Part shown: in pieces, positions 12,525 through 63,311 of the stretch | Layout: every line of letters begins with the position of its first letter | Numbering within the stretch: the first letter of the stretch is position 1 | NCBI GenBank assembly: GCA_025602905.1 | Contig: JAHLKI010000013.1 | Location: forward strand, 310,001-374,000 | Length of the DNA: 64,000 bases | Direction of reading: 5' to 3' | Source: Phlyctochytrium arcticum | Lineage: Eukaryota; Chytridiomycota; Chytridiomycetes; Chytridiales; Chytridiaceae | Made by a program: the position numbers and the translations under genes | Notes under the pieces: model-generated | What the model was told of the DNA's origin: nothing | What the model saw: the letters and a program-made list of their open reading frames with translations, nothing else | The model's database searches: none

Positions 12525-12535
12525 AGGAGCGAGCG

Positions 12536-41394: not shown

Positions 41395-41480
41395 GAGAGC
41401 GCCTCGAATGCACGGTGCCGATCGCTAAAATGCGGGGTTCTCCCACTGGGGGACGCACTATATCCTTTTTAGGACAACTT
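41395..41480. repeat. MULE terminal inverted repeat, left
   Basis: Starts GAGAGCGCCTCGAATGC; inverted match at 44619-44704 with only a few mismatches, including the second terminal base. Confidence 0.9.
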
Positions 41481-41784
41481 TTTGTCTTTGTGCTGCCAGA
41501 TGTGCTCCCAGAGCCTCTAAACCACGGTTTCGGACCTAGTTCTTCATCTGGGCGTCGTACGTTTAACAACTTTTCCCCGTAACAATGTTTGTTTATGTTC
41601 ATACACTTTTCACAATGTCCACAATTCGACAGATTTTTGCCAGACACACCCAACAACGATTATGATAACATTGAGAATGAAAAATTATGACAATAAATAG
41701 AACAGGTGGTCAAAGAGAAACAAGACAGCAACAAAAAAAGACAGATTGCCATAGCAACAAATGTTTATTACGGACGTCAACACT

Positions 41785-44097
41785 TCACGCACGCGTAGAA
41801 CCACCATCGCGACCTCGTCCTCTGCGTCCTCCTCGACCTCGTCCAGTAGTCTTGGGCTTGGGAGCTGCCTTCCGAACCTTCCTACACTGCTTCAGAACAT
41901 GGTCGTACTGGTGCTCGGTCGATCCGCACCCTGTGCACCGACGCTTCGTGGGAGGCTTTGTCAAGTCCAAACCAAGACTAGACGCGTCCTCACCCGCCCC
42001 CATCTCCATATTCTCAACACTGGCGCACAGTGCACGCAAATCAGCCATAAGATCGTCCTCCCCACTCAAGTCGATCATCTCGTCCTCGTCTTCCGGGTCG
42101 GACTCCGGAATTGGCTGGTCTCCTGGCGCGCTCAGGTCGTCTTCGCCATCTTCAGCATCTCCAGCAAGACCAAGATCCTCGCCACTACTGTGAATGCGGG
42201 GTTCTTGCCACTGGTTTCGTGGTCTTCCAATGCCTTGCTTTTGCTGCGGTTCTCTAGCGCCGGCAATGTCTGGAGCAATTGTGTTGTCTTGGGGTTCATC
42301 GACTAAGTACCATCGCGCGTCAAACTGCCGGTAGCTGAGCTGCTCCTTCTTCTCGAGGATACTCATGACTTCATGGCCGCACGGCACACCATAAACTTTG
42401 CGAATTGTGCACCGGCACTCCACATCACCATCGTCGATTGCTGCCGTCACGCTCTTCCAAGATTTCGATGTCAGGTTGATCGCAAATCTGGAAACAATTT
42501 GCTGAAGCGGCAAGAACATGACGTTGAAGGTGGTGACAATGCCGTTGATCTCGTTATTGTACCGAATCTCGGATTTCTTCTGCATGCTTGCTACCGTCAA
42601 GGATATCTTCTTGTACGTGTGGGCAAGAGTTCCGACGGAAGACTTCAGGTTTTGTTTGATCCGCCGATGTTGGCTCTCGACAATGGATGTCTCCGTATGT
42701 CTGCAGTGTTTGAGTTGGTTGGTAGAGAAGCCGGCGAAATGTTCCTTGAAAGGTAACTTGTTGGATGTGATGTAGTTAATTGTTTCTGGGCTAACAAGTT
42801 TCGCAATCTCGCTCCAGGCTTGTTTGAAGAGGGCTTCTGTCGGCTGCTCCAACATATACTTCCAGTCCTTTTCGAATTTGGCCCATGTATATGCTTCCAA
42901 GTTATCATCAGACGCTGTCACAAAGTATTTGTGGCAGTTGGATTTGATGTTGAGAAGGATATGCCACCGGCAAAGGAGTCTCTTCGTCTGGGGCCAAACT
43001 CCTTTCAAGGCTCCTATCAACGCTTTTTCGTGGTCGGTTACTACAATGTCAGGTGCCCTGCCCAAAACTTGCGTCAACAACTGTAGGAACCAAACATAGT
43101 CGCCGCATTCTTCCTGCTCAACAATTCCAAATGCAATGGAGAATGTGTTGTTGGTAGCCGTGAATCCAACAGTATGCATCATTGGCATCTTGTACTTGTT
43201 GGTTTGGTAAGTGGCATCAATAATTACCACATCCGCGTACTTCCTAACGTTTGGATTACCATCGGCTGACCAAAACAAACGACGTACGGTACGGTCGGCG
43301 TTCAGTGTGAAGTCCGCCACCAAATGATTTTGTTTCATTCTCGTCAACAGCGCCTCCATCATCGTCATAGTTCCAAGCTCTTTTCTCTGCATTCGGGCGA
43401 CAATGTTGGAGACATCCCGAGCAACGATCAGGATCGGTCTGTCCGGATTGTCATCAGCAAGCGACTGAACTATTTCACCGGGACTACGGGCATCAGCGTA
43501 CATATCAATAATCTTGGCGAGAATGACACCATCTGCAAGTTTTTGGGTGGCCCTTCTTGCTGCAGGCAGACTGGCAAGCTCTGCGGTGTTCCTCTTTGGA
43601 TAGTTGATGTGCTGGTCGTGCCCGTCGCCAAATTTCACAATCCTCCAAACTTCTCCAACCAAGCTTAAACGGACTCTGTAGGTGCAACCGACCTTCTTAC
43701 TCTCCCGCTTTCTCTTCGAGTTTGGAATGTTTGCTGGAGGCGACCCACCCTGACAACAATGAAAGATCACCATACGAACAATTTTCGGATTGCCCCAGTG
43801 TTCCTTTTTCTTCTCAGAAACAGCAAATCCCTCGGAAAGCGCGTACTGATGAACACCGTCAATCCCCTTTTCCATCGTGGCAAATTCAACATCCGGCGCA
43901 GCTTGAGGAAACCATGGAGCGTGGCGGGATGCGGCTTGCGCGATGATAGCATTTGCCAAAGCAGCTTGAGGGGCGGCCAGGCTACTGGGAAGAACGATTG
44001 CCTGTTCGGGGGTCAACCCGACCACAGTGGCAACCTCTGTTGGCGGTCTTGCGCTGGGGCGTGCGATAGCTGTGTCTGCAGAATTGGCGGCTTCCAT
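41785..44097 (-). CDS. MULE/FAR1-type transposase
   Basis: 770 residues, intronless. A FAR1/GCM-like zinc-binding DNA-binding domain lies near 70-165 (FHCCQGG ... KVGCTYRVRL). The MULE catalytic domain has DATYQTN near 294 and TDHEKAL near 355 (DDE aspartates), CRWHILLNIK, and a downstream glutamate not pinned here. A SWIM zinc finger (CRCTIRKVYGVPCGH) lies near 572. The C-terminus carries an acidic stretch, a CCHC-like knuckle (CTGCGSTEHQYDH) and an RGRGG-type basic tail. Cuts and pastes the element. With intact frames and ends it may be active. Confidence 0.93.
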   Translation of the reverse strand: MEAANSADTAIARPSARPPTEVATVVGLTPEQAIVLPSSLAAPQAALANAIIAQAASRHAPWFPQAAPDVEFATMEKGIDGVHQYALSEGFAVSEKKKEHWGNPKIVRMVIFHCCQGGSPPANIPNSKRKRESKKVGCTYRVRLSLVGEVWRIVKFGDGHDQHINYPKRNTAELASLPAARRATQKLADGVILAKIIDMYADARSPGEIVQSLADDNPDRPILIVARDVSNIVARMQRKELGTMTMMEALLTRMKQNHLVADFTLNADRTVRRLFWSADGNPNVRKYADVVIIDATYQTNKYKMPMMHTVGFTATNNTFSIAFGIVEQEECGDYVWFLQLLTQVLGRAPDIVVTDHEKALIGALKGVWPQTKRLLCRWHILLNIKSNCHKYFVTASDDNLEAYTWAKFEKDWKYMLEQPTEALFKQAWSEIAKLVSPETINYITSNKLPFKEHFAGFSTNQLKHCRHTETSIVESQHRRIKQNLKSSVGTLAHTYKKISLTVASMQKKSEIRYNNEINGIVTTFNVMFLPLQQIVSRFAINLTSKSWKSVTAAIDDGDVECRCTIRKVYGVPCGHEVMSILEKKEQLSYRQFDARWYLVDEPQDNTIAPDIAGAREPQQKQGIGRPRNQWQEPRIHSSGEDLGLAGDAEDGEDDLSAPGDQPIPESDPEDEDEMIDLSGEDDLMADLRALCASVENMEMGAGEDASSLGLDLTKPPTKRRCTGCGSTEHQYDHVLKQCRKVRKAAPKPKTTGRGRGGRRGRGRDGGSTRA

Positions 44098-44618
44098 TTC
44101 GGGTGTTGTGTTGTGTTGGTGTTGGACAGGTTCTTCGATTCAGAAGAATGGGGCGAACCTGAGTGGCAATCGGACGGCCGGAGCGGAGTTTTGGTTGCCA
44201 AACAGGACAAGGATTCGGACGTGGTATGATTTGGCAGATGCCTTTACTATTAACCTTTCATTTTCAGAACAGCAAGCGTCGACATGTACCACTAGGCTAG
44301 TTCTTTGTTTACATTTCAACGGTTTTGCGTCACTATCTAGTTCGCCTTTTTTCAATACACTGCAATTCAGTTACTACAATGATTTCTTTTCGTTTTACAA
44401 TGCGAGTGTTCACATTTGGTTCAGTCAGTACTCTGTTCACATGTGGTTTATATGGGAAAGTGTGATCCGGATGCATAGCACACATTTGAGAGCGATTGCT
44501 AATGGAGTATAAACAAAAGTTGTTAAACGAAAAAGTTGCGATGGCCAAGGACAGTGCCGAAGCCGTGGTTCATCCGCACATGGGAGCACAAAAGGTCGCA
44601 ATGCGAACACCAACGAAA

Positions 44619-44704
44619 AAGTTGTCCTAAAAAGGATATAGCGCGTCCCCCAGTGGGAGAACCCCGCATTTTAGCGATCGGCACCGTGCATTCGAGGCGC
44701 TCCC
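44619..44704. repeat. MULE terminal inverted repeat, right
   Basis: Inverted copy of the left repeat, ending GCATTCGAGGCGCTCCC; followed by TGACGTAAC. Confidence 0.9.
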
Positions 44705-46538: not shown

Positions 46539-47587
46539 GAGCATCTCCACCGTTGGTGGTTAAACGCGTGACTAAACTAAATGTAGGCAGAATTTCTTCC
46601 ACCGGTGTGATTAAATCTTGGCTAAATTTGCACATTTTTAAAAATAGCGCAAAATCTGGTCAGATCTGACCAGAATCTGCCTCTGTGTAAACCCTGCCTA
46701 AACGTGATTTGTCAGCATTTCCGCTGCTGGACGTGCCGAAAATCAGCCAAGTATTTGTTTATGTTGATACTAGACTACAAGATCAATCACATTTTACCAC
46801 CACTTACTTTAACTGCAAGCATGTCTGACAACGGATCATCGGGATTTGACTCCTCTCAGAACTCCTCCGCTTTTTCCAGCTCTTCCCAGTCTTCTGAGGG
46901 TATAGGACTTTCGTTTTTACAAAGACATTTTGAGCACGATGAAGAAGAACAAGTGATGATCCAAGAAGCTCAGTCAATCATCTTCGCAAAAGACATCGTT
47001 GGCAAGCACGGCGGTTCGGTTCCTGGACGTATGCCCAATATCGACAGGGATCGGGAGGGTGGAGAGGAACGGCTTATGCGAGACTACTTTGGCGAGAATC
47101 CGATCTACGGCGAGCACTTTTTTCGACGGCGGTTCCGCATGCGGCGGCCTCGGTTCATGAAGATTGTTGAAGCAGTGCAACAGTATGATAAGTATTTCGT
47201 TAAAAAGGCTGATGCTTGTAGGTTGTTGGGACTTTCACCCATACAGAAATGCACCGCTGCCATCCGGCAGTTGGCCTACGGGTGTGCCGCGGACAGCATC
47301 GATGAATACGTTCGAATAAGCGAAACTACCGCGATCAAGACTCTTAAGAGGTTCACTCGTGCTATCGTGGACATTTATGAGGACGAGTATTTGCGTACTC
47401 CGAATCAAGCGGACATTGAACGACTGCTTGCGATGAATGCAGCTCGCGGATTCCCGGGGATGCTGGGAAGTTTGGACTGCATGCATTGGCCCTGGAAAAA
47501 TTGCCCGTCCGCTTGGGCCGGACAGTACACAGGGAAGGAAAAGTCTCCCACTCTTGTTCTGGAGGCTGTTGTGGATCAGGAACTATG
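46539..47587 (+). mobile_element. PIF/Harbinger transposon, right part missing
   Basis: The left end is placed at GAGCATCTCCACCG (46539) after a TTA, which fits the TWA target preference and typical termini of this superfamily. The transposase gene starts at 46821 and is cut at 47587, where viral sequence begins. The right inverted repeat, target duplication and any Myb-like second gene are absent. Confidence 0.65.
46821..47587 (+). pseudogene. Harbinger (HARBI1-like, DDE_4) transposase, truncated
   Basis: Starts MSDNGSSGF and reads in one frame for about 255 residues: RMRRPRFMKIVEAV, LSPIQKCTAAIRQLAYG, YVRISETTAIK, FPGMLGSLDCMHWPWKNCP (first catalytic Asp) and LEAVVDQELW (second Asp). The next codons do not match the family, which normally continues with another WH-containing block, and the catalytic Glu is lost. 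The frame then runs about 25 codons into viral sequence and stops at 47663. Inactive. Confidence 0.85.
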
Positions 47588-47610
47588 GTTGACACGGTGC
47601 ATATTGACAC
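47588..47610. repeat. Putative viral terminal sequence
   Basis: Begins TGACACGGTGCATATTGACA directly after the last Harbinger codon. It matches the palindrome arm at 35074 (TGTCACCGTGCATACTGACA) at 18 of 22 aligned positions. The methyltransferase stop lies about 34 bases inside. Likely the terminal repeat of the viral element. Confidence 0.6.
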
Positions 47611-47621
47611 TGACTACCCAC

Positions 47622-48211
47622 CTATTTCTCAGGGTTCAATGGATGTATTGTTTTGTCGTGTAAGAAAGCGGATAATCGTGGTACATGTCGATGTGGTTTT
47701 GGAAAATGAAATGGTTTCGTTTGACAGTCTTTCCGTATTCCAACTATATACAAACGGCGTCTATTTTGAGGTATGCCAAAGTCTCTTGTATTCTGAATAG
47801 CATAGTGAATCGAATAATCGTCATCTCTGTTGAGTTCGGCAATTAGATTGTTGAATTTCGGGCCTGTTTTTTCGCCCTTTTTACGTCCAAATGTCATGTA
47901 TCGTGAAACGTTTTCAAGAATGAATACTTTGGGTTTCGTGCAATGAATAGTTTGAATACAATGATCTGACAGATTTGCCCTGATAGAGTCAGGCATTTCT
48001 ACCGGTGTCTTCCGGTTCAAATGTCTGAGCGTGGAAAAAGTTTGACAAGGAAAGCCGGCGACATAAATGTCTGTTTTTGGCAACTCGTTATGGTTTCTGG
48101 TGGTGATATCCTCAAATACTAGTTTGGGTGAATGATTGGCGGCGATCATATCCTGACACCGTGGATCCATTTCGCAGCTCCACTCGTGCGAGTATTGTAT
48201 TCCAAGTTGCT
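47622..48211 (-). pseudogene. C5 cytosine DNA methyltransferase, N-terminus lost to a Ty3 insertion
   Basis: Transfers a methyl group from SAM to cytosine C5. Readable from about YKQLGIQYSHEWSCEMD at the LTR border through the catalytic motif IV GFPCQTFS, motif VI ILENV, and motif VIII QNRRRLYIVG, to the stop at 47622. Motif I (the SAM loop) and the first residues would lie upstream, where the LTR now sits at 48212. The C-terminal motifs IX and X seem shortened. This compact form is common in viruses and phages. In the provirus it could modify viral DNA or evade host restriction; this role is inferred. Confidence 0.85.
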
Positions 48212-48477
48212 TATAACAAGACTCCTTGGTTCAGTGTTGTTGAGCAATAACTATGTCGAATGAAGTATGATACAATGAGAATAGAATTGCTAGAGAAAGA
48301 AGAGGGGATGTCCAGAGGACCAAGACTATATACAGGGGAGAACTATGTACAAAAAGGCTACCGCTAGCTATCTAATGAAAAGGATGGCGAACGGTAAACT
48401 ACGGAAATGAAGACGCGAACGCGACACGCGACGCGTTAACAATGACAAGATTATACTGACAAGCCGGGCTTGTCACA
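48212..48477 (-). repeat. LTR of a second Ty3 element
   Basis: Starts TATAACAAG and ends GCTTGTCACA on the + strand, like the first element's LTR (TATAACAGG ... GCTTGTTACA), but the interior is clearly different. It lies against the methyltransferase reading frame. Ends are placed by analogy, so they may be off by a few bases. Confidence 0.72.
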
Positions 48478-49282
48478 CTCCCTCACTAAAGGATGAGCGG
48501 TACCGGAGGTTGTGCTTGGCCTGGTAGTCCTTGAGAATAGCAATGGCTGCCGGGCCTTCGAAACTCTTGGCGGGTTCAAACGTATTTTCCTCAGACGGAT
48601 AACCTTTCCATTTAACCAGATATCGGAGTTGATTGCGGTACTTCCGATGACTTTCAATGCGTTCAACTTCATAGAAAGCTTCGTCGTTGTAAATCTGGGG
48701 AGCGGGGCGTGGAGGTACTTGGCGATCCGGGAAGTGGGTGGTTGGTTGAACGTAAGGCTTGATGAGGCTGATGTGGAAGGTAGGATGTGCTTGAATCGTG
48801 GGAGGCAAATCGAGGGTGACATTCCTGTTGGCATCGAGGGCGGTGATCGGGAATGGTCCTAACCACAGTGGTAGAAGCTTAGCGACGGGCCGGTCGCGGG
48901 TTGTCTCCTGGGATAGTCCTTTGTGCGAGAGCATAACGAGGTCTCCGACATTGTAGGTAGGCGAGGGACGGCGATCTTTGTTATACTGTTCTGCCTGGCG
49001 CTGTTGTGCGGCTACAATGTTGTCGCGGGCTACTTTGCTCGTATCGTTGATGTGTGTGAGAAAGTCCGAGGCTTCGGGGTTGGCAGCGTTGTTGAGGTCT
49101 AAGGGTGTGTTCGGTGTGCGGGGATGACGTCCAGTGTCAACGTAGAAGGGGGTCAAGCCCGTTGAGCTTGAGGTCGAGTCGTTGTATGCAAATTCGGCGA
49201 GGTGCAAAAGATCTTGCCAGTTGGTCATGTGATAATCGACGAACGCGCGGAGGTATGTTTTCAAACTCTTGATCGTTACTTC
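48473..49282 (-). pseudogene. Ty3 Pol C-terminal fragment (integrase tail and chromodomain)
   Basis: Reads in one frame from [12 protein letters not shown], just after the catalytic-Glu region of integrase, through GLTPFYVDTGRHPRTP and a GPY/F-like part to a chromodomain ([32 protein letters not shown]). It is homologous to, but divergent from, the Pol at 12536-16279, so it is a different Ty3 family member. Everything upstream (gag, protease, RT, RNase H, 5' LTR) is missing. At about 49282 the sequence switches to the viral recombinase. Confidence 0.88.
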
Positions 49283-49330
49283 GAAGTCCAGAGCACTGGA
49301 CCCTTGCAGTTTACCCTTGAGTTTATCGAG

Positions 49331-50455
49331 ATGGTATTCAATCAAGCAAAAAATGACCCTGATCCGGAAAAGAAGCGAAAAGACAAGACATACAAGAATG
49401 GTCTTTCATGTTGCAAGAATGCATCGATCTTTTTCGAGGTTGAGAATACTGATTATATTCTTCACAAGGATCGTATTCAAAATAAATTAGATGAAACATT
49501 GGAAAAGATTCTCGAAACAGAAGATGACAGTCAGATAATCAAGCAACGTATTCAACAACTGAAGAGTTTATGCGATGGATTGTCGCTCTTATTGAAAATA
49601 TTGAATACTGATGAAAAGCAGCGAGTCGACAACTACGATGAATTGCGAGACTTGTTTTCCGATTGTTCGAATTATTACAAGGGCCAAATCGCGCTGATTC
49701 TGGAAGAGCAAAAAACTTCTGAAGAATTTCAACGAGAAAAGTATATCCCATGGGAAACTTTGGAAGATGAGTGTCGTATTCGTATTGCCAGTATTGATCT
49801 CGAACATTGCACAAAAGAGGAATTCCGTGCTATATTGATTCTATGCCTCTATGTGAATCACCCTCCGAGAAGGAGCCTAGAATATAAGTCACTCTCATTG
49901 AACAAAGAACATGCCAATTATTACGATGGTGAACGTGGTGTGCTTGTTTTGAAGGAATACAAGACTTCTAATGTCTACGGTAGATACCATATGAAACTTT
50001 CACAATTCGAAAAGAAGCTATTTGAGACATACCGCAACAGATTCGGTAAAGATGATATGATATTCAGCGGTTGGGCTTCGAATTGGTCACGACATGTTGC
50101 GAAAATATTCGATGATGTTGTTGGAAAACCACTTACTAGTACAGATTTGCGCAAGTTGTATGTTTCTCATCTTGTCGCTTCGGGTGGATTGAAATACTTG
50201 GCAGAAAAGAAACGTTTAGCTTGTCAAATGGGACATTCCGTAGCCCTACAGACGTTGAACTATACGTTTCAACCTGTTGAAGTTGAAGAGAATACGATTC
50301 CTATGGAAGTCGTTGAAGAGAATACGGATCCCGTAGTTTCTTCACCAGCGAAAAAACCTAAGCGCTATTGGACGCCAGCAGAAAAAATAATTTTCCACGA
50401 GTTGCGAGACGATTATGAACGTATCCAGCCTGATGAAACTTTTCAGACATTTTAA
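49331..50455 (+). CDS. Tyrosine recombinase (YREC)
   Basis: Site-specific DNA recombinase. From the ATG at 49331 it is 374 residues; the frame is also open upstream into the Ty3 junction, so the true N-terminus may be lost. A coiled, charged N-terminal half (about 1-150) precedes the catalytic domain: first Arg in HPPRRSLEYKSL, Lys in LKEYKTSN, second Arg in STDLRKLYVSH, a GH pair in CQMGHS and the Tyr in TLNYTF. The HxxR histidine is replaced by Thr. A basic tail (KKPKRYWTPAEK) follows. Similar enzymes occur in some polinton-like viruses, Crypton-type elements and giant viruses. It is convergent with the rve integrase next door. Confidence 0.75.
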   Translation: MVFNQAKNDPDPEKKRKDKTYKNGLSCCKNASIFFEVENTDYILHKDRIQNKLDETLEKILETEDDSQIIKQRIQQLKSLCDGLSLLLKILNTDEKQRVDNYDELRDLFSDCSNYYKGQIALILEEQKTSEEFQREKYIPWETLEDECRIRIASIDLEHCTKEEFRAILILCLYVNHPPRRSLEYKSLSLNKEHANYYDGERGVLVLKEYKTSNVYGRYHMKLSQFEKKLFETYRNRFGKDDMIFSGWASNWSRHVAKIFDDVVGKPLTSTDLRKLYVSHLVASGGLKYLAEKKRLACQMGHSVALQTLNYTFQPVEVEENTIPMEVVEENTDPVVSSPAKKPKRYWTPAEKIIFHELRDDYERIQPDETFQTF

Positions 50456-50539
50456 TAGTGGTCGTTTACCTAAAGATTTGACTAAGGAAATGATTAAAAA
50501 TAGGAACAAAAATGAGAAGAAAAAGAAGAGACCCACTAA

Positions 50540-51814
50540 CTAGCGATTATATTCTCTTTCGAAATCCAGGATCTCTTCTTGAAATCCATCCTCAATCAAA
50601 TTCGAAGAAGGTTCCCACGTATTCGAATCTGAGTCATAGCCCTTCCAGCTAATGAGATATTCTATTTTCCTTCGATTTGTACGTTTATCTAATATATTTT
50701 CAATTTCGAATCGTTCAATACCATCATCTTCTTCATCAGCTTCTTCCTCTTCATCAGATTCTGTATTCACATTTGCAACAGGTTCAGGTAACACATTTTC
50801 TACTTCATCGACTTTTCTTAACATATACGCGGGATACAAACCGTATAAGCTATTCCCTGAGAAATTCTTCAATTTGTAGGCGTCAGAATATGACGGTCTC
50901 GTTGATTTCACTATCTTTGATATAGTATAGATTTCCTTTGAAAAGTACCCCTTCTTGCTACGCTTCTCCACTTTACTAATCTGTGTCAATTTGCGCACAT
51001 TATCTCCGATTGACAGGTCAGGTAAGAGTTTCGTCCCTCTACCCTTCGTCCGTGATACTAATTGTTTCTGATAAGCTTCTTCAGGATTATCTAGAATTTG
51101 TTGAGTTGTCATGTTCCCACTCCCAAAGTGAATAGCGCTAGTATTCAGGTTTTCGACAACCTTTGGCAACGCTGCAGGCCAGTTTGGATCACCGAGCTGA
51201 ATACTTTTGAAGAAAATGTTCTTAAGTGAGCCTTGTACCCTTTCTACATGCGAGTTACTTTGGGGCCGCCCAGGGCGACTAAAGGTCCACTGTATTCCGT
51301 TTTCTTCTGCCCATGACTGTACCGAACTCTGGAACTCATTACCGTTATCCGAGTTCACGTAGACCATCTCGACACCGTCCTCTAGTACATCGTCTAAGAA
51401 ATCTCGAACTTCTTGCTGAGTATTCGCCTTAATAGCTTTTGAATACAATTTCTTACTGAATATGTCGATTAAATTCACGATATAATTAAAACCATTATAC
51501 GAATTCGACCTCATATTCACAGTGTCTATCTGGAGCGTCCCTGGTTTGGACGAGAGGATAGGGCGAATACTACCCTTGCTCCCAACAGGACGCGTCGTTC
51601 GTTGCCAAATGTCTTGGCGCTTCAAAAAATTCAATATGGTACGTTGAGACACCTTAGAATCAGGATACCGTTGTTTGTATGCGTAATATAGTCTATCCCT
51701 CCCATAGAGATTTTTGCCGGTGTAAAAAAAGTCTTTCAATCGACGGGCATCTTCATCTGTTAGCTCTTTAGCATATTGCAATGACCTAGATTTAATGACC
51801 GGTACTTCTTCCAT
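50540..51814 (-). CDS. Polinton-type retroviral-like (rve) integrase with chromodomain
   Basis: 424 residues. The DDE integrase core has LQIDTVNM (Asp 97), NSDNGNEF (Asp 156) and HVERVQG (Glu 191). A helical/zinc-like N-terminal part precedes it ([14 protein letters not shown]). The C-terminus, after an acidic Glu/Asp run near 350, is a chromodomain ([34 protein letters not shown]). This architecture is typical of Polinton integrases, which insert the linear viral DNA, the chromodomain probably guiding target choice. The frame is intact. Confidence 0.93.
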
Positions 51815-51828
51815 TTACTATTAATCAT

Positions 51829-53277
51829 TTATTTTCTCTTTTGACGCTTTGCCGGAGGCGCTAAAGTTTCCCTTTCAGCTTCGAGTAACCGATTTGCTCT
51901 GGCGGGATTCAGAATCGCTGTCAGAGCTGGACCTTTTCCCTTTTTCTTTGAATATGCAAAGGGCCGAGCTGGTTCTTTCACATCCTTCTTTGGGTATTCA
52001 AACGGCTTCTCGAATTCCTTATATGCGGTAGCCGGTGCTTTTGGTAACGCCACGAACCCTGGTGGTTCTAATCGAGGATTTTTCTTTCGTCGCTTAGGTG
52101 CAGCCTGTTCCAAATCCGCTTCTTGTCGTTGTGCTCTTTTCGGATTGATGATCGCCGAATCAGTCAGTTGAGTCGGTAAGGCACTTAGTGGACGAATGAC
52201 AGAAACATTGACTGGTGTCTGTCCTGGAATACGTTGTGCGACCCTTTCAGCAGCATTAACAGCTGCATCAACAGCGGCATAGCCATAGTCATATTCAATT
52301 TTTCGACCCATTTCTGGTTTGGGTAATAAAGGTGCAAATGGTTTAGTTGGTATTTGTTTTTCAGATATTGCAGGTATTTCTGGTTCCACTGAAGATTTCA
52401 GACGAGTATCTTCCTTTTTATTGAATGGGTTTAAACGATTCTTTGTTTTATCCCTTCCTCTGTTTATTGTACCTCGCATGTTGTATTCTGGATCATTGTT
52501 ATCGACAATATTGTAATCAAGGAATTTTCTAACATTATCTTGACCCGCCACATAAATATTGGGAGGATCGATTGGTGTTACTGGTGAAGGTACAGACACA
52601 GGTGATACAATTCTAGGAGAAGGCTCTGGAGAGGGTACTCTATGGAAACCGCCTGGCATACTGATTTCAATTGGTTCAGGTACCCGTCGAATTGGCAACG
52701 GATTAACTACAGTCGATGGTTTACTGAGAAAACCAAGACCAGTCTCTGCATCTTTCCGAACAACTGTATCAGACACTTCAATGACAGGACGGGATACAGT
52801 TTGTCCCTGTAATGGTCTCTCACGTTCTGGTGTATTTTGCGGCCTGGAAAACATCATTCCAGTATTCGCAGTAACTTCAGGAGGGTAATGAAAGATCACA
52901 CCATTCTGCGACGGAATGGGTAAACGTGAAGCATTTGTACCACTGACTGATTTTTGCGGCGTGATTGAATCAATGAATTGCTGTTTCTCTCGATGCATCA
53001 GTTCGAGATTTTTATATTCTTCAAAGTCTTTGTATGCTTTGGTTGCGTAACGAGAATCACGCGCAACGAAGTAGGTCTCTGAGACATCTTGAACATGGTG
53101 ATCAATATGAGAAACATTTCGCGGATTCATACGCCTCAACCGTTTGTTAAATGTGCCGACAACACGTGGCCTTCCATGATTCACATCGACACCTACTGTA
53201 TTCAGGTTACTTTGAGGATTAGGTTCTGGTACTCTTAATGAACCATCGAATTCTATTAGATTGGTCCGATATACCAT
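51829..53277 (-). CDS. Unknown Pro/Arg-rich viral protein (482 aa)
   Basis: Begins MVYRTNLIEFDGSLRVPEP. The N-terminal 130 residues may fold (RVVGTFNKRLRRMNP, SRYATKAYKDFEEYKN). The rest is low-complexity, rich in Pro, Arg and Lys, with repeated PExxRP-like segments and a basic end (PAKRQKRK). It starts 57 bp from the divergent small gene and ends 15 bp before the integrase start, so it is in the same transcriptional run. Polintons carry unnamed structural or DNA-associated proteins at such places. No family recognised; a virion or DNA-binding role is only a guess. Confidence 0.7.
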   Translation of the reverse strand: MVYRTNLIEFDGSLRVPEPNPQSNLNTVGVDVNHGRPRVVGTFNKRLRRMNPRNVSHIDHHVQDVSETYFVARDSRYATKAYKDFEEYKNLELMHREKQQFIDSITPQKSVSGTNASRLPIPSQNGVIFHYPPEVTANTGMMFSRPQNTPERERPLQGQTVSRPVIEVSDTVVRKDAETGLGFLSKPSTVVNPLPIRRVPEPIEISMPGGFHRVPSPEPSPRIVSPVSVPSPVTPIDPPNIYVAGQDNVRKFLDYNIVDNNDPEYNMRGTINRGRDKTKNRLNPFNKKEDTRLKSSVEPEIPAISEKQIPTKPFAPLLPKPEMGRKIEYDYGYAAVDAAVNAAERVAQRIPGQTPVNVSVIRPLSALPTQLTDSAIINPKRAQRQEADLEQAAPKRRKKNPRLEPPGFVALPKAPATAYKEFEKPFEYPKKDVKEPARPFAYSKKKGKGPALTAILNPARANRLLEAERETLAPPAKRQKRK

Positions 53278-53333
53278 TGTTTCTTTTCTCTATGCATGAG
53301 AGAATATAAAATCTATGTAATATATAACAAAAC

Positions 53334-53624
53334 CATGAGTTTCCGTAACCTTTTCAACAAGGGAAAGCAAGGCTTGCGTACAGCGTCTTTGCCCACAAAG
53401 CTCGATCGTTCGCATCACAAGCGGTGGGAATCGCGAATAAAGGCCAGAAACTACTGAAAGGTGTCAATCAGAGTATTCAAGAAAGTCCGAATTTGTTTTC
53501 AGAGAATATAAGAGGAAAAGCAAATGACCTTTCTTCCAAAGCAGAAAGCGGCGTGAAGAAGCTATCCGACCTGCATAAGAATTCAGAAGCATTTGCCGAT
53601 AGACTTGAAGCGAACCTCAAGTAA
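53334..53624 (+). pseudogene. Small viral protein, probably frameshifted
   Basis: An ATG at 53334 gives MSFRNLFNKGKQG and stops after about 40 codons. A different frame is open from about 53370 through GIANKGQKLLKGVNQSIQ to a stop at 53624. Joined, it would be about 95 residues, basic and helical. This looks like one small gene with an indel near 53365-53400. It overlaps the ATPase 3' end by eight bases. Function unknown. Confidence 0.5.
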
Positions 53625-54325
53625 AGTAATATTTGAAAATATTGTCTTCACAGTATGTATAGATTTCCTTTGCATTATCATTAGCTAAATTTATATAACA
53701 AAACGAATACGGCTTTGTCGTACATTGAACCAAATAGTCTAACACTTCTTTCTTGTCAGCAAATGCTGTTACGAGACTTTCGGCAAGCGTTTCCATATCC
53801 CTTCTATTATTGCGGAATACGATCCATTCAGTCGTGCAATTTTTTTGTTTTCTCGAGAGCTGACTGGTGATGCTTTGACATGTCACCATGATGGAGATGT
53901 TGTAATGCCGTCCCTTCGTAAAGAGCTTGTCCAATTCACGCGACAAGTCTTTGCTTCGTGCTGAATCACCTGCATCGTCAATGAACAAGAGTATCTTGTC
54001 TTTACATTTGTCCTCGATTTGCGAATCAACAATACTCTTGATACTTTCATTTGACACTACGTCGACAAAGAATATATTCTGATGCTTTGTGACTCTTGAT
54101 AATTCCTGAATACACAAATCGTATGCTACTGTATCAGACATTATAATCACCTTGTCAAACAGTTTTCGCATAGACATCGTTGATTACTCCCGCACACATA
54201 CTACTCTTGCCAGATTTTCTTGGAGCGACGAGCGTTGAACATAGAGGCGGAGACGCTAGGGGAAACGGTACTCGTTTGTCCGGTGCTATCGATTTACTGT
54301 TGAATATAGGTTTCACTCGATACAT
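53617..54325 (-). pseudogene. FtsK/HerA-type (A32-like) genome-packaging ATPase, frameshifted
   Basis: Powers packaging of DNA into virions. From the ATG at 54325 (MYRVKPIFN) the frame carries a Walker A APRKSGKSS (about 54204-54230) and continues to VYAK near 54165. There the frame shifts inside an AAAA run. The following frame, 54165-53617, has the Walker B KILLFIDDAGD and the downstream ISIMVTCQS. Together about 235 residues, the usual length. The shift means this copy is inactive, or that one base is wrong in the assembly. A TATATAA lies just upstream, near 54339. Confidence 0.8.
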
Positions 54326-54365
54326 GATTCTTTTCTATTATATAAGAGAAGAAACAAGCAGCACG

Positions 54366-55085
54366 ATGATCAGCGAATGGACTTTCTGTAGCTTGAAAGG
54401 CCGTAGCTTTCCGATAGGTAGGAGAAATGTTTCCTACATCAAGATTCTCAGTGTATCCTTCATTCAAGACTACGATCTTATTAATGCCACAAACAACACC
54501 ATTGTATTCAAAGAAAGCGGCAATGACGATCCAATTGTAGCAACTGTTCCACCAGGAAATTATACTGTTGCCAACTTTCCACAATCTATTGCCTCAGCCA
54601 TGACTATTGCAGGTTCCCAATCGTATTCTGCAACCTACAACCAAATCACACGTCGCATTACAATGACTTCTGTTGATAAGGATTTCAGTATTCTGCCTGG
54701 CAAAGAAGGAACAAAGATGTACAGTGTCAGTGGCATGTCGAATCGCCCAGCGACACCTTTAGGCAAATCTGCCACATTTAAAAACACAGTCAATCTCTCA
54801 GGTTCTTACCCCATACTTCTTACTAGCAACATCAATGTACCTTCTGTCCGTTTCCTTTCCGATTACAATGACATTGGCAGTAGCGTCGTTGCAACAGTGG
54901 TACCTGACAGTTTCGGAGACGTCATAAATTTTACCAACGATTCAGAATGGCTGACCGTGGATCAGACTATTAGCAAAATCGAGTTCCATCTAGTAGACAG
55001 CATAACGAACGAAGAGCTCGCACTGGAGTCACCTTTAACAGTAAGGTTCCTTATTGCCGACGACATTCAAGATGTGAGAATATAA
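54366..55085 (+). CDS. Penton / minor capsid protein (probable)
   Basis: 239 residues from the ATG at 54366 (MISEWTFCS); the frame is open further upstream, but that part overlaps the ATPase gene on the other strand. All-beta character: FIQDYDLINATNNTIVFKE, VPPGNYTVANFPQSIASAM, NLSGSYPILLTSN, and a C-terminal strand run ending FLIADDIQDVRI. Position between ATPase and capsid gene, size and strand pattern fit the single-jelly-roll penton of Polintons, virophages and PLVs. It would form the vertices. The assignment is inferred from context and sequence style, not from a catalytic motif. Confidence 0.65.
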   Translation: MISEWTFCSLKGRSFPIGRRNVSYIKILSVSFIQDYDLINATNNTIVFKESGNDDPIVATVPPGNYTVANFPQSIASAMTIAGSQSYSATYNQITRRITMTSVDKDFSILPGKEGTKMYSVSGMSNRPATPLGKSATFKNTVNLSGSYPILLTSNINVPSVRFLSDYNDIGSSVVATVVPDSFGDVINFTNDSEWLTVDQTISKIEFHLVDSITNEELALESPLTVRFLIADDIQDVRI

Positions 55086-55110
55086 GAATTTTTTTTGTCG
55101 TTAGGATAAA

Positions 55111-55281
55111 ATGGATACTGAAGAAGAATTTCTTGAAGCATACAAATTAGTAAATGAGATCGAAGAACGAAATAAGAAGGAAAAGACACACAAAAGAATT
55201 GAAAAATCGCAGAAAGAAAAATTAGACAAAGTACTGAAACAACTAGAGAAAGCACTAAAGACGTTAAACAAATTGCTCTAA
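55111..55281 (+). CDS. Small coiled-coil viral protein (56 aa)
   Basis: ATG at 55111, stop 55279-55281; MDTEEEFLEAYKLVNEIEER then Lys/Glu-rich heptads. Highly helical and probably a coiled coil. Preceded by a T run and followed 26 bp later by the next gene, itself preceded by a T run. Compact spacing and the same strand as penton and capsid suggest it is a real late gene. Function unknown. Confidence 0.55.
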   Translation: MDTEEEFLEAYKLVNEIEERNKKEKTHKRIEKSQKEKLDKVLKQLEKALKTLNKLL

Positions 55282-55307
55282 GTTTTTTTTTCTTGTACAG
55301 TATAAAA

Positions 55308-55796
55308 ATGAATACTCAAGAAGACGCTTTACTTGAAACACAAGAAACCAGTCCGGTACAGAATGTTGTACAAGAAACTGTACGGGAAGCAGTGCAACAA
55401 GAAGAAGAACCAACAGCTACTGTAATTGAACAAGAAACACCAAAGAAACAGAAGAGAGAGATGTCTGAGAAGCAAAAGGAAGCTTTACGCAAAGCCCAAG
55501 AGTCGCGCAAGGTACAGTTGAATACTATGCAGAAACAACGTGATGAAGAAAGAGAACAATTGGAATACCAGAGGAAAATTGAAGAGGCCTACAACTTGGT
55601 GAATCAATTAGAAGAACGTAAACGACAAGAAAAAGAACAGAAACGTCTCGAAAGGTTGCAAAAGAAACAATTGAGAGAACAGAAGAATACGCAAGTCAAA
55701 CCAAAGGCCCAAAAGAAACAACAAGAAGCAAAACCTAAACAAGTAGAAAAAAAAGTAGTTGAAGAAGAAAACTTTGGCGGAATATTCGGGTATTGA
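55308..55796 (+). CDS. Lys/Glu/Gln-rich coiled-coil viral protein (162 aa)
   Basis: ATG at 55308, directly after TATAAAA. The N-terminal 60 residues are acidic and Gln-rich; the rest is a long charged helix (MSEKQKEALRKAQES, LVNQLEERKRQEKEQ), with a basic Lys/Gln stretch and the ending NFGGIFGY. It could be a DNA-binding core or scaffold protein. No family recognised. Confidence 0.6.
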   Translation: MNTQEDALLETQETSPVQNVVQETVREAVQQEEEPTATVIEQETPKKQKREMSEKQKEALRKAQESRKVQLNTMQKQRDEEREQLEYQRKIEEAYNLVNQLEERKRQEKEQKRLERLQKKQLREQKNTQVKPKAQKKQQEAKPKQVEKKVVEEENFGGIFGY

Positions 55797-55822
55797 TTTT
55801 TTTTTATATTCATTAAGTAACC

Positions 55823-56649
55823 ATGTCTGATATTCCGCGTAATTGGCTCGTCCACAGCAATCGATTTGCAAAAAGTTATAGCAATCCGAGAGGTGAATCT
55901 TGGTTGTTTTTTAATCCACTTGGTCAGGACGTATTCACCAGTAAAACTCGAACTACAACACCTATCAAGATTTCCTTAAATGATTCTTCTCGATCCTTGA
56001 TATTGCAAAAGTTGCTTCTTTCTTTTGATGTGACCGCAATGAAAAATGGTGCACCCGTTTCAGGGAATACGATTGTGAATACCGAGTTGGGTCTAGATGG
56101 TCTTATCCAATCAGTGCGTGTTCAAATTGGTAACAAGGTTCTTCAGGAAATTCCCAACTATCCTCATTATCTAACTCACAACTACAAATATATTCCTGAA
56201 ACGTTGAAGAAAACGATTCGAAGTATGAACGGCTATGGTGCGACGAACATCTTCCAAGCATCACCTACCGTATCTTACACAAGTCACATGCCGATAGGCT
56301 TCTTCCACTGTGATGACGAACGACCCCTGCACGTTTGGGCCCACCCCTCACAAAATATTGATATATACTTGACTATAGTCGATCCCAAACAGTTTTTCTT
56401 GAATGATACAGTTGATGAAGTTATATTCAGAAACGTTGAATTCTTGGTCCCCTGTATTACTCCTCCTCCTGAATACGTGTTCCAAGTGGAGAAGTCGATT
56501 AGTGCTGGTAAAGCAATCAATTACGATTACGTCCGAACGACTCAAGTTGAAATTAATTGTAACGGTGCTAGTCGACAAATCTACTCTGCAAACTTTTCTG
56601 GTGTACGCTCTTTACGATCTATTGATTTCTCATGGATTGGCGACGACCA
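55823..56649 (+). pseudogene. Major capsid protein (double jelly roll), C-terminus lost
   Basis: Starts MSDIPRNWLVHSNRF and reads cleanly for about 275 residues: FNPLGQDVFTSKTRTTTPI, LLLSFDVTAMKNG, ELGLDGLIQSVRVQIG, then YPHYLTHNYKYIPETLKKT, NIDIYLTIVDPKQFFL and PPPEYVFQVEKS. Size, start and the position after penton and ATPase fit Polinton/PLV major capsid proteins, which are about 500-600 residues. After IDFSWIGDDQ the sequence becomes CLC exon 4 (from AATTCAC). Half the protein is missing. The call to capsid is from sequence style and neighbours and is strong as a set. Confidence 0.8.
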
Positions 56650-58265
56650 AATTCACTTTCTGCCATAGTGGAGACTTTGATGGTGGCCCTGATCATCAAA
56701 CTCCTTTTCACCGTTATCACATTTGATCTCAAGATCGCTGCTGGTATATTCATACCGTCGATGACCATTGGTGCTCTTATGGGACGAATGGTTGGCGTTT
56801 GTGTGCAACTGATGGTTGAGGATAACTCAACTCTATGGGCGCGATGTGACAAGCGGGGTAATGGCGACGAGTCCATCTCGTGCGTCGTTCCCGGGATCTA
56901 CGCTGTGGTAGGAGCGGCGGCCGCCGTTACAGGGGTCACACGCATGACAGGTAACAAAGAGTTCGTACCTCTCTCATTTGGACTTTTAACCAAACATCAA
57001 CTTTAGTGTCGCTCACTGTAATTATTTTGGAGCTAACGGGTTCTGTTCCGTCTTTACTTCCAGCCATGACATGCATTATGTTGGCAAAGTGGGTGGGTGA
57101 CGCTCTTGCGCCGATGGGTCTCTATGAGACTGCAATCTTTCACGGTGGTTATCCATATCTCGATGCCAAACGAGGTGTTCGTCAACGCGGAACCAAGGGC
57201 TGGACGGTCTTGGATATAGTCGAGACTGCTGGCATTGGAACGCTTGGAAAAGGAGTTTCTCGAAATCTTGGAGTCGTTCGCTCCGATGTCGAATACAAGA
57301 TTGAAGAACTTGAAGATCTGGTGAAAAAATCCTTTTCGATTGGGCGGCTTGGGACAAGGTCGGCCTTGAGCGCCCGAGGGCTGAATAGTATTACCAAAGG
57401 CAACGAAATTATGGAGGATGGTGGATTCCCAGTGGTTGACCGCCACGACGTTCTGGTCGGTTATATTGCGAATCCTGAACTCCTTCATGCCTTGAACTTA
57501 GCCCGATCATCATCAAATAATGAGTGGCCGGTAATTTTCAAACGTCCTCGCCCAACTGCCAGCGTTTCGGACAGGGACAGAAATTTGAGTCAAGCTAGTC
57601 TCCTATTATATCCCGATCAACCCATTCTCAGTCCATCGTTCACGTCTGCGCCCGGCTCAAGTCACGTATTAGTCGGCTCTTCGCAAGAAACACCACAAAC
57701 AACTGTATCTCGTGCAGCCAGTCCTATAAATCAATCTTCGGGAGCGCGTTTCCCGTCCACATCTCCCACACCCTTACAAGTACCGCGCCGAACACTCTCC
57801 CCTCTCGTTGGAAGCTACTTTAGCGCTAATGACAGTTATCAAAGCTTTAAACCTTCTGCAACTGAGGCACCCTACTTCACCCATCAACAACCACTACTAC
57901 AGAACACCCCACCAACCTCCGCCCCGCCTTTCCTTTCCAATCTCATACAGTCGCCCACTCGTGGGCCTGTCAGTCCGACCTTCATAGCGTCTCTTCCTAA
58001 TTCATCCCGCTCATCACTTGCCCGAGAACGGCCATCACAAATTAACTCGACCATCACTGGGGAAGCCCATGACTTTACGCCATGGATGGACACTGCTCCG
58101 CTCGCTGTCTCGCATACCACGTCACTTGACCTTGTCCATGAGCTATTTGTTAAACTGGGTGTCAAGACGTTGTGTGTGGTTTGTGACGGGAAACTGGTAG
58201 GGGTTGTCCATAAGAAAACGGTTGTCGCTTTTGTAAGGGAGGTAGGCAAAGGCATGTGGGAATAG
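56650..58265 (+). pseudogene. CLC gene copy B, 3' half only
   Basis: Same as copy A from the middle of exon 4: [16 protein letters not shown], then the 26235-26290 intron equivalent, then the last exon with the CBS pair and Ser/Pro-rich insert. It lacks the first channel helices and any start, so it is not functional. It is joined in an accidental open frame to the viral capsid gene for only a few codons. Confidence 0.93.
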
Positions 58266-58897
58266 GGGCTGGACCTCCGAAATTTGTATTTACTGACAAC
58301 CTTGTGAACATACTGTACTTGATTTATGCTTTGAAATGAGATGTGTATTTGAGTCGCAGAGGAGGCAGAGGATGATGGGTGCCCACACAACTTGTCGCTC
58401 ACTCATACTACGTGGCTATAGAAACCTACCTCTCCAAAGTTCTAATGGAGGTTCTCACTAATTGGGACTTGCTCAATAGGAGCAATAGGAGAATGCCTCG
58501 GGAATGTGTTTCTTGTTAATCAGAGCAGGGCAGGGAAGGCCTCCTTTTTATAGGATTTGGACATCCCCCCCCCGGCACTCTGAGAAAAAAAGTACAGACT
58601 ATAGTTTTGCAAACAAAAGACCACATGTGAAAACATATGGGAAAGGACATGGGATTTCAAAGCAGGAAATCCAAGATAAAAGATATGTGCTCATGGAAGA
58701 GACTAAAAATGGTAATAATGGGGAAAGAATCGAAAGAGAACACAAAGCCATGATGGATGAAATCGGGATGATTTCAAGCCCATAATTGCGACTTCGTGGG
58801 CACTAGAGATGGGTGATGCGTACTCGTGGAAGGGCTCATGATGTGGAATCAAATGGTGAGGTGGTAGGAAACAGTTGTATTTCCAACAAGTTCATGA
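58266..58897. other. Intergenic, copy B
   Basis: Duplicate of 27550-28181. No gene. Confidence 0.5.
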
Positions 58898-58968
58898 GCA
58901 TTGGTGGTTTAGTGGTAAAATTGCCGCTTGCCATGCGGCAGCCCCGGGTTCGATTCCCGGCCAATGCA
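58898..58968 (+). tRNA. tRNA-Gly (anticodon GCC), copy B
   Basis: Identical to the gene at 28182-28252, with the same flanks and T-run terminator. Confidence 0.95.
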
Positions 58969-61210
58969 TGTCTTATTTTTGCATTTTTTTGCCTTTTTTT
59001 GTACCCTCAAAACTTGAACGAAGCTTTTGGCACATACCCTACTAAAGGTAGATCTCGGATTTGGATTAGATGCTCTTTTTTGGATGCGATACGGATAGGA
59101 TCCAGCGGGTTATTTGAGAAAGTTGCCAAGGACTTACGAGATATCACTTGATAAGCGGTGAAGTTCCCACAGTTCCACAGTTATCAAACCCAAGTACGAT
59201 TTCGAAATGAAGCAAACCAAAGGGCGAAAGCCTAATGATATAGAAAACCTATTTCTCAAATAGATATAGAGAGTAACGCAGGATGACGACGGAAAGAAAG
59301 AAAATCGGAAACTAGGCCAAGAAGACATGTGGAAATCCAGTAGGGATAAAGATCAACATTCAAACAAGACGATGAGAGATAAAGAATGCAAACAGCTACA
59401 TATCGCCATTCGTACCTGAGCAGGTATTTATACCTGACTCAAAGTTACATTTCCCACAAATACTATCACGTCTGCTCCAAGTCGCAATGTAAAAGATGAT
59501 GATATCCCGTTGGATGATCGTTGGTATGCAACCTGCTTATTTTTTTGAGTTCACAGGTTGACACACCATCAATGCATCTCTTGGGTCATTCTTGAGAAGA
59601 ATTGGGTATTGACTTGCCGCCCCCCACCAATCTTATTATGAGCTCCATCAAAAAATCGAGCCACTTTGCCAACGAGATTCCCACAAAACGTCCCGATATC
59701 GGAACGCGTCAGAAACACACAAATCCCGATGCCCCTCTATCACACAATTTCATCCTATTCAATCATCATTTGTCCGATTTTTGACACTTTGCAACCAAAT
59801 CCGTACCGCATTCTATCACGTAATTTAAGTCAGGTTGTCTTGGTCAGGTTTTGTTTGGGTCAGGTATCGTCCCCCCGACCCCCCGGATACCTAAAAACGA
59901 CCCCTCGGATACCCCCATCAGACTGCCAGAAGGTCCAAAAAGAAAAAAGCTTAGATCTTTATCCAAATGCCAGAGAGACTAATCAATTTACTCGGGTTGG
60001 TTTATGTTTCGGTCGCACTTTCGATCAGGGTTTTGTGTGGTTTTTAGCAGGTTTTATTTGTTGCTCAATGTCAAATCTTGGTCCAACTGGAGTTGCCAGA
60101 TTCATGCGGCAAACAACGGCTGCTGCTGCCACATTGGCCTGTTTCATGTGAATGGGAAAACATTGTCAAATGGAACTGTTGTATATCGTAGTTTTCAATT
60201 CGGTCAAAAATGACTATGTGATTTTGGATTCGCCAACACACCGTAGATCGGAGTAGCTCGCTCAGGTCTGGCGATGAGGAGAGGCAAAGCCAATAATGCA
60301 CTTTCCTAGTTAATTTACTATCCAACATCCCACATTCTTTATAGATCGCTCCAGACCACGTCTAGGTGTTCTCACTCAAATTTGTTCTGCCATTCATCTC
60401 GCAAACAAATGATTCTAAATTTGGAAGTTGCGAAGTATAAACTTACCGAGGGTCGGTACGGCACATGGGCGATGAGGTGACTTCTGTTAATCACTGAGGA
60501 ACCAACATGATGTGTCTGACGCCGAAGATGCGGAGGGCATATAGAGGCTAATCCTGTGTGTCTCCGATGTTGTTCCAACCCGCAACAATCCTGAAAATCA
60601 AATCGGGATTTAATGCTCGAGCTGATGCCTAATCTATAGGCTCCCTGGCTCCGCGGTTGTAATATTTGAGCAAGTTCGATGTGTCTGTTCGAATCTAGAA
60701 TGTGACATTTGTAAAAATGATTTAGGTCTAACCTCTGGAGCGGCTGGAGGTAGTTATTTTTTCATTTGCCATTCTCGCAACATAATTGGCATTTGTTCAT
60801 AAGAGGATTTTGCGTGTGCCTACGTCGGCGAAGGATTCGCCAAGTCGGGTACCAGGTCGGGTACCCAAAGAACGTAAAAATATTCAAAGTTGAGCAAGAT
60901 TAATTTGACTAGACCGCCGAGGTACATCAGCTTCCCAAGTGACGGGTTTACGGAATTTCTGGCTTTCTGGGGTGCATCGGAGGGCGGCGGGTGTAAAGTC
61001 TCTCTAAAATCCTTTCAATTTTAAGGGTAGACCCTCAACCCGAGCCCTTTGTTGACTAGATCAAACGACATGGGACGGAATTATCGGCTCGATCGGGAAT
61101 TAGGCAAATCTTCCGGATCAAACATGTGCGGGGCCAAGGGGTGAGTGGGGGTGGAATGGCATGAGCTATAAAGTTATAGCACGGACTTTTCTTTCCCTCT
61201 TTTAAGTATC
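58969..61210. other. Intergenic, copy B
   Basis: Duplicate of 28253-30475 with a small indel cluster near 60911-60977. No gene. The TATA box of the next gene is kept (about 61167). Confidence 0.5.
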
Positions 61211-63124: not shown

Positions 63125-63311
63125 CAGGATTGGGCGAGAAAAGAATATCATTTCCTTTGTAGAGAAATATTTAGCAGACTGTTGTTCTTTGGAAATGTAT
63201 GAGATCGTATTTAACGCAAAATGTGTGTTGGGAATTTTATTTTATGCAACATTAGAAGTGATATTATAGCAGCGACAGCAGGGGGGAAAAATATATATAC
63301 GATCTGAGATT

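Follow-up and report, generated by a model that had tools for sequence, protein, structure and literature searches.

A truncated polinton-like provirus in a chytrid chloride-channel gene and the palindromic ends of its relatives

The provirus in the window

The DNA considered here (the window) is a stretch of 64,000 nucleotides from the chytrid fungus Phlyctochytrium arcticum, C13:310001-374000 of a 31.48-Mb assembly (GCA_025602905.1; contigs are designated by C-numbers, and coordinates without a contig are those of the window). It carries a block of viral genes which we take, with a probability of roughly 0.8, to belong to a truncated provirus of a polinton-like virus (PLV), a member of a chytrid lineage designated 'A', lying inside one copy of a duplicated chloride-channel gene. 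An earlier note on this DNA had proposed a polinton-like element at 47588-56649, and this identity is borne out, since the genes for capsid, penton, packaging ATPase, rve-chromodomain integrase and a recombinase-like protein all lie within 49331-56649.

The block opens with a tyrosine-recombinase-like gene that has lost its N-terminus (49331-50455, + strand), the product of which carries recombinase-type motifs and is 47% identical to a 483-aa protein of the complete relative on contig C26 described below. There follow an integrase in an open frame, with an rve domain (PF00665, E 8e-15) and a C-terminal chromodomain (PF00385, E 1e-14) (50540-51814, - strand), a 482-aa protein without a family match (51829-53277, -; 501 aa in C26), a small basic protein gene broken by stop codons (53335-53624, +; ~100 aa in C26), and an A32-type packaging ATPase of 186 aa, as against 235 aa in C26 (53617-54177, -; PF04665 (Pox_A32), E 1.2e-9). 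The remainder lies on the + strand and comprises the penton protein (54366-55085), a small charged protein of 56 aa (55111-55281), a charged K/E/Q-rich protein of 162 aa (55308-55796), to which proteins of similar composition between penton and capsid correspond in C26 lineages A and D, and the major capsid protein (55823-56658), represented by the first ~277 of 416 residues and 95% identical to the full-length copy L002. The predicted folds agree with the virion roles that had been assigned to capsid and penton, and Pfam matches confirm the ATPase, the chromodomain integrase and a C5 cytosine methyltransferase fragment on the left (47622-48211, -; ORF (open reading frame) 47622-48170; PF00145, E 4e-33). 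The A+T-richness and intronless packing remarked upon earlier also hold, as 49331-56649 has 40.1% G+C against 48.4% for window 1-33608, and the ORFs of the block are unspliced. A Pfam scan of the window ORFs gave no reverse transcriptase match for the integrase.

The double jelly-roll capsid, penton and A32-type ATPase expected of a PLV are thus all present in the window element, the ATPase in a broken frame, with its Walker A end encoded further upstream in a different frame (by eye); a length of 14-40 kb with terminal inverted repeats is found in the C26 relative (25.1 kb, repeats of ~1.08 kb). In the comparison with virophages, 15 of the 18 capsid profile matches were chytrid sequences. No protease was named among the scanned ORFs of the window and the C26 pieces, a dedicated protease profile not having been used.

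The host unit is duplicated in tandem over about 10.5 kb, with copies 99.6-99.9% identical by self-comparison, through either a recent event or unresolved haplotypes, and the viral insert occurs only in the second. The first copy (23097-33608, +) consists of a CLC chloride-channel gene (PF00654; ORFs from 23603) and downstream DNA. The second is split by a 21.6-kb insert (35074-56649) into a 5' part holding the start of the CLC gene (33611-35073, +; 99.86% identical to 23097-24559) and a 3' part (56650-64000, +, continuing to C13:374343; 99.55% identical to 25934-33265, then 343 of 343 bases, L066). Host homology ends at 35073 and gives way to the left terminal hairpin, a perfect 56-nt palindrome of the form TG...CA (35074-35129), which belongs to the same family as the ends of other elements and the core of which recurs at C1:451271. 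The right border lies inside the capsid gene, which is joined to CLC DNA at 56650-56658 with a 3-nt overlap (AAT), and 1.37 kb of the channel gene is lost at this junction. The interval first proposed for the element therefore holds on its right side and does contain the viral genes, but its left start does not stand, the insert starting at 35074, far outside 47588; nor is the gene set uninterrupted, as a Harbinger-type end and the 3' part of a Ty3/gypsy element lie inside it.

The window copy is dead: its capsid is cut at about residue 277, its ATPase is frameshifted, its recombinase and methyltransferase are truncated, and one small gene is broken. The description of a virion-forming element accordingly suits the family, by its capsid, penton and ATPase, but not the window copy itself, in which several genes are broken. 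Several kilobases are absent between methyltransferase and recombinase, where the C26 element has the PrimPol-D5 helicase, the D12 methyltransferase and other genes, and the place of this provirus middle is occupied by the Ty3/gypsy piece, which has its own chromodomain (48212-49330, -; PF00385, PF24626; 66% identical to window 12504-13318). Secondary insertion is also represented by a MULE transposon (41397-44702, -; PF10551, E 1.8e-25; 770-aa transposase ORF and 87-nt inverted ends, 99% identical), and a truncated transposase which we take to be of PIF/Harbinger type lies at 46704-47663 (+; PF04827, E 4.9e-29, profile positions 2-79 of 205). On the far left, a D5-type helicase ORF of 480 aa (35112-36554, -; PF08706, E 2.5e-11; pieces 97-98% identical on C1 and C20 and 84% on C17) probably represents the left arm of this provirus or of a recombinant one, and is followed by a PAS-guanylate cyclase ORF with the cyclase domain cut short (37995-38912, -; PF00211, E 1.3e-15, profile positions 3-63 of 183). 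Helicase and cyclase recur together at C1:1518069-1521313, 97-99% identical, with spacings of 1.44 and 1.46 kb at the two loci; this joint recurrence at near-equal spacing makes it probable that the left arm in turn belongs to a mobile unit. The simplest history of the insert is that of one provirus with a lost right end: a single provirus would have inserted, a later rearrangement would have deleted its right end along with 1.37 kb of channel-gene sequence, and the remainder would then have been interrupted by MULE, Harbinger-type and gypsy elements.

Relatives, empty site and target duplications

A complete copy elsewhere in the genome, such as the earlier note had suggested seeking, was found on C26: a lineage-A relative of 25.1 kb, nested within a lineage-D provirus and bounded by inverted repeats of ~1.1 kb (C26:370318-371397 and 394399-395465, 96.7% identical). 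Its genes, which were annotated in four separate pieces, include structural and mobility genes (capsid, penton, 235-aa ATPase, integrase and 483-aa recombinase-like protein), as well as replication and modification genes (an 844-aa PrimPol-D5 helicase, a D12 adenine methyltransferase and a C5 methyltransferase). The element also encodes a response regulator, a fibre-like protein whose ~1,685 aa are spread over two pieces, two proteins judged by eye to be Cys-rich, and further ORFs. The window block is collinear with this element; their DNA is 78-92% identical over the stretch running from the integrase to the capsid, and 63-68% identical over the recombinase. Chance assembly of the block is excluded because the same gene order aligns to a complete element. 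The methyltransferase fragment of the window is 73% identical in DNA to that of the C26 element over 47694-48211, and we assign it to the provirus because it has the same side and orientation in the complete relative. Long fibre-like proteins occur in lineages A and D (L031:1-1503, and L033:5731 to L034:791); their similarity to avian adenovirus fibre is weak (19.9 and 22.4 bits, under the Pfam cut-off of 22.7), and a PDB sequence search for the fibre returned nothing useful. The response-regulator receiver domain protein is encoded at L034:1167-1565 (C26:393766-394164; E 2.5e-8), near the PLV inverted repeat.

An uninterrupted lineage-D copy on C7 matches the two sides of the C26 insertion at 98.9% and 99.0% identity and thus represents the empty site. 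A first reading of the C26 borders gave a 6-bp duplication, which was replaced by one of 5 bp because the symmetry of the TG...CA ends sets the borders. Duplications of 5 bp flank all four elements for which both tips were available (GTAAC on C26, GTCAG on C18, GACAT on C41 and GTTAC on C23); the window retains one end. These lineage A and B elements depart from the 6-bp duplication of Mavericks/Polintons. The C26 element and the window copy also depart from their combination of protein-primed polymerase B with rve, the rve gene being present without a polymerase-B match: none of the 14 matches to PF03175 (polymerase B) in the genome falls within C26:370318-395465 or the window. The inverted repeats of the C41 element differ at 2 of 1,038 columns, and over 1,968 columns those of C23 are free of mismatches, with two gaps, near-identity that points to recent insertions. 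With a nested provirus and an empty site, the genome offers a datable record of virus insertion.

Genome searches scored the best candidates only (99 of 195 in the integrase search), and the genome counts given here are therefore lower bounds. The capsid search yielded 50 matches, some being pieces of one gene, which fall into about five lineages plus fragments, with identities to the window copy of 88-95% (A), 51-55% (B), 42-46% (C), 27-29% (D) and 20-22% (E); a full-length capsid ORF (412-417 aa) is present in 20 of the 30 loci retrieved. In a capsid tree of 30 rows the window copy groups within lineage A. Lineages A and B are united in a single clade (100/100), outside which the C rows lie, close to other chytrid sequences, and D is a long branch whose grouping with a Thoreauomyces row may be false. 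The helicases of the C23 element (a B capsid locus) and the C26 element (lineage A) are 100% identical over 844 aa, which indicates that elements exchange parts. Scans of IMG/VR, for which the capsid, its alignment and the helicase served as queries, confirmed no locus.

Terminal palindromes and a polymerase-B contrast

A near-perfect palindrome of 64-75 nt was found at 14 of the 17 end loci examined, one mismatch being allowed in the search, and that of the window is 56 nt long and perfect. At L044 the longest palindrome belongs to the end of an adjacent element, and the tip of L044 itself is at C1:1324346. The outer arms are common to the family, with CGTGCATA or CGGTGCATA and the complement, and the inner arms are lineage-specific. 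The pattern GTGCATAN{18,48}TATGCAC, which is its own reverse complement, occurs at 86 places in the genome, versus 1 for the reversed control. Among the 50 pattern places listed, complementarity of the inner arms is at least 75% in 45 and at most 29% in the other 5. These 45 places represent 28 distinct palindromes. Of the 440 inner-arm positions in these, 429 are complementary (after selection at >=75%), compared with 34% for arms taken from different palindromes. All four matched pair types occur at seven of the eight tabulated inner positions, so that changes in one arm are mirrored on the other. The central, asymmetric loop bases occur in both orientations, which are opposite at the two ends of the C26, C18 and C41 elements; the genome thus holds terminal palindromes in flip and flop forms, as in hairpin-ended replicons. 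Covarying arms together with two loop orientations are the trace that hairpin-templated replication would be expected to leave.

Proximity to viral genes was compared on ten contigs whose length is known. A hand-picked match to capsid, integrase or helicase lies no more than 5 kb away for 16 of 40 palindromes and no more than 30 kb away for 28 of the 40, where random placement gives 3.5% and 13.3%. On C1-C17, capsid matches are bracketed by palindromes on both sides within 30 kb in 6/6 cases for B (two of which are probably one gene), 2/7 for C, 1/3 for E, 0/6 for A and 0/3 for D, the complete A elements on C26, C18 and C41 being outside these contigs; polymerase-B matches are bracketed in none of six cases.

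The polymerase-B type is represented by an element of 15.9 kb at about C25:398332-414234, with penton, capsid, rve and polymerase B, the inverted repeats of which are 81% identical over 739 columns. Its ends are formed by AGTAGTTAAGG and the complement (AG...CT), and CGCGGG on both flanks constitutes a 6-bp duplication; ordinary Polinton ends likewise start with AG. Over roughly 300 nt at each end, a search for palindromes with arms of at least 14 gave none, and neither end piece contains the GTGCATA motif. Within one genome, PrimPol-type elements therefore have TG...CA ends, 5-bp duplications and hairpins, whereas the polymerase-B element has AG...CT, 6 bp and no palindrome. Plain AG...CT repeats thus provide a contrast in the same genome, and the palindrome set, with conserved outer arms, complementary but diverging inner arms and both loops, makes hairpin replication directly testable.

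Integration, replication and comparison with known systems

Integrases at least 74% identical to that of the window occur at 13 loci, and a recombinase-like gene or pieces of one adjoin 12 of them, the exception being a partial integrase at C2:478940. All six copies of the recombinase-like protein contain the motifs PPRRS, YKT, TD(L/M)RK, MGHS and LNYTF, and with them the residues R, K, DxRK and GH-x8-Y, though the H normally found in HxxR is lacking. At the C-terminus, three of the four copies scanned show a weak Myb-like match, below cut-off. Searches of Pfam, PHROGs, NCBIfam and PDB sequences gave no recombinase match. The tyrosine recombinase named earlier, here at 49331-50455, thus keeps its catalytic-type motifs and lacks profile support, and because of the latter the name is used here by motif only. 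In the accessible part of a survey of n = 8300, two co-encoded integrase types arose only via retrotransposon insertions (PMC12220804), and within the portion of the literature covered we found no description of rve and a recombinase-like gene as co-encoded genes of one PLV. Their pairing raises the question of the role of the second enzyme.

A mechanism can be proposed in which the rve-chromodomain integrase, rather than the recombinase, would insert the viral genome, while the extrachromosomal genome would be linear and copied through its hairpin ends by a PrimPol-D5 helicase replicon. Such replication would transfer a change in one arm to the other and yield flip and flop loops; the recombinase-like protein may process the hairpin ends, and the virion would be built from capsid, penton and ATPase with the fibre. 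For lineages A and B we tentatively suggest, while regarding it as rather doubtful, a split system in which rve inserts and the recombinase-like protein is a putative hairpin-telomere resolvase that would cut and rejoin the terminal palindromes after replication. If so, this protein would be a eukaryotic-virus counterpart of bacterial telomere resolvases, and among members of the group without polymerase B hairpin ends would take the place of protein priming. A general link between recombinase and hairpins was considered and dropped, as palindromes also bracket lineages in which no recombinase was detected, which counts against the recombinase being required for palindromes. The window copy is incapable of any of the proposed steps.

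Several observations weigh against the provirus reading or its hairpin component. The left arm of the window (D5 helicase and PAS-cyclase) is unlike that of the C26 element, and 35074-56649 might on this account be two insertions. Three of the 17 end loci (L046, L047 and L048) have no palindrome in the stretch examined, 12 of the 40 palindromes are more than 30 kb from any matched viral gene, and the loop orientation in C23 is identical at both ends. The two C18 ends differ in tip subtype, which implies that ends recombine and that repeat divergence is no clock at C18. The polymerase-B contrast consists of one case with both tips observed. Cruciform exchange in the chromosome could also invert the loops, although by itself it leaves the matched arm changes unexplained, and long palindromes can be prone to mis-assembly.

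This last point leads to the possibility that the duplication, palindromes and inverted gene pairs are assembly artefacts from fold-back reads or mixed haplotypes. Two 99.6% host copies do flank the insert, and equal-score inverted pairs occur on C40, C9, C10 and C18; nevertheless, the 28 distinct palindromes with a common outer motif (which bear on the palindromes and not on the host duplication or inverted pairs), and their position exactly at the tips, beside 5-bp duplications, in the four elements examined, make such an origin improbable. If the interval were no more than host genes and transposon pieces brought together by chance, the MULE, Harbinger-type and gypsy pieces and the broken genes would be accounted for, yet this reading is refuted by the same genes in the same order and orientation in the complete C26 element. 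The place of the window copy inside lineage A in the capsid tree also speaks against it, and its probability is close to nil.

The elements might instead be Maverick/Polinton transposons that spread within the genome by rve and polymerase B, with capsid genes as relics. They share with such transposons rve with a chromodomain, inverted repeats, target duplications and many genomic copies, and PF03175 polymerase-B elements are present in the same genome. However, the complete lineage-A element has no polymerase-B match and carries PrimPol-D5 instead, its duplications are of 5 bp where rve elements, in the part of the source available (PMC12220804), and the C25 element have 6 bp, and large fibre-like genes are retained. 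Full-length capsid ORFs in 20 of 30 loci also argue against relics, though the youth of the copies could account for these. We consider the transposon explanation unlikely, and still less probable is integration by the tyrosine recombinase with the palindromes as its attachment sites. The gene adjoins the integrase at 12 of 13 lineage A/B loci, and tyrosine recombinases integrate other PLVs (PMC12220804, as far as the accessible text extends), but clean 5-bp duplications in 4/4 elements at three different target sequences bear no recombinase signature, and palindromes bracket capsid genes for which no such recombinase was found (C4:900748/925826 and C6:103490/127695).

Compared with known systems, the proviral elements are not the first PLVs in chytrids, which are already known from the Spizellomyces punctatus PLV group and Allomyces (capsid, ATPase and helicase; PMC7805220, available portion). 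The Powellomyces chytrid fungus MELD virus 5, known from third-party annotation protein records, and the S. punctatus group share the type of host, as described by Bellas and Sommaruga 2021 (PMC7805220) in the sections available. Lineage-A capsids are 43-44%, and the window penton 54-55%, identical to Powellomyces/Spizellomyces proteins, and these sequences fall apart from the A+B clade (100/100). The little-described fungal lineage of the earlier note therefore stands as a clade of its own, though among chytrid PLVs already reported from S. punctatus, Allomyces and Powellomyces. By description rather than element DNA, the accessible accounts of these elements mention neither terminal palindromes nor an rve and recombinase pairing. 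A survey of protists excluded fungi, according to the part available (PMC10120064).

Cryptophyte PLVs, in the available portion of their description (PMC12220804), resemble the chytrid elements in size, inverted repeats, rve or tyrosine recombinase, AEP-type primases and avian-adenovirus-fibre domains, so that fibres of this kind have already been reported in PLVs; they differ in rve duplications of typically 6 bp rather than 5 bp, and in that rve and the recombinase-like gene are both element genes in chytrids. Mavericks/Polintons share the rve-chromodomain integrase, A32-type ATPase, penton, double jelly-roll capsid and target duplications, whereas the lineage-A element lacks polymerase B and has palindromic TG...CA ends and a 5-bp duplication. 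Parvoviruses and chloroviruses also have hairpin-ended genomes, parvoviruses being of a different genome class. Terminal palindromes able to fold back are shared with poxviruses (PMC8956199), where two loop orientations likewise occur, and with giant viruses of a cryptomonad (PMC12747079); genome size sets these viruses apart. Unlike in these hairpin-ended viruses, the whole palindrome is kept here in an integrated provirus with integrase-type ends. The bacterial telomere resolvases TelA and ResT, in the accounts accessible, resolve palindromic replicated telomeres and offer an analogy of mechanism only; no sequence match was found between them and the chytrid recombinase-like protein, whose resolvase role is putative. 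Among the polinton, PLV, virophage and Preplasmiviricota papers listed by the literature searches made here, which cover few subscription journals, none gives an account of hairpin-ended PLVs in its title or the opening of its abstract. How linear PLV genomes without a protein-primed polymerase replicate their ends is the question on which the palindromes bear.

Some further observations concern the same genome. Additional virus lineages (D and E) with polymerase B, rve, penton and capsid occur at C26:362600-370317 plus 395466-401019, C7:987073-996300 and C25:398332-414234, and closely resemble true Polintons. Viral gene pairs of equal score, inverted and facing one another, were seen at C1:1325850/1341274, C40:8810/29668, C10:4397/19874, C9:368428/377915 and C18:111503/132181, as expected of fold-back dimers or assembly artefacts. 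The PAS-guanylate cyclase of the window has a 99% identical copy at C1:1518069-1518983, beside the same D5 helicase pieces, so that a signalling gene is apparently carried by a mobile element, possibly as cargo; the available part of one study describes a guanylate cyclase fusion used for light sensing by a zoosporic fungus (PMC4046227). Finally, two palindromes of the same family lie 4.6 kb apart at C7:648180 and C7:652746 with no matched viral gene within 30 kb, and possibly delimit a short non-autonomous element with hairpin ends.

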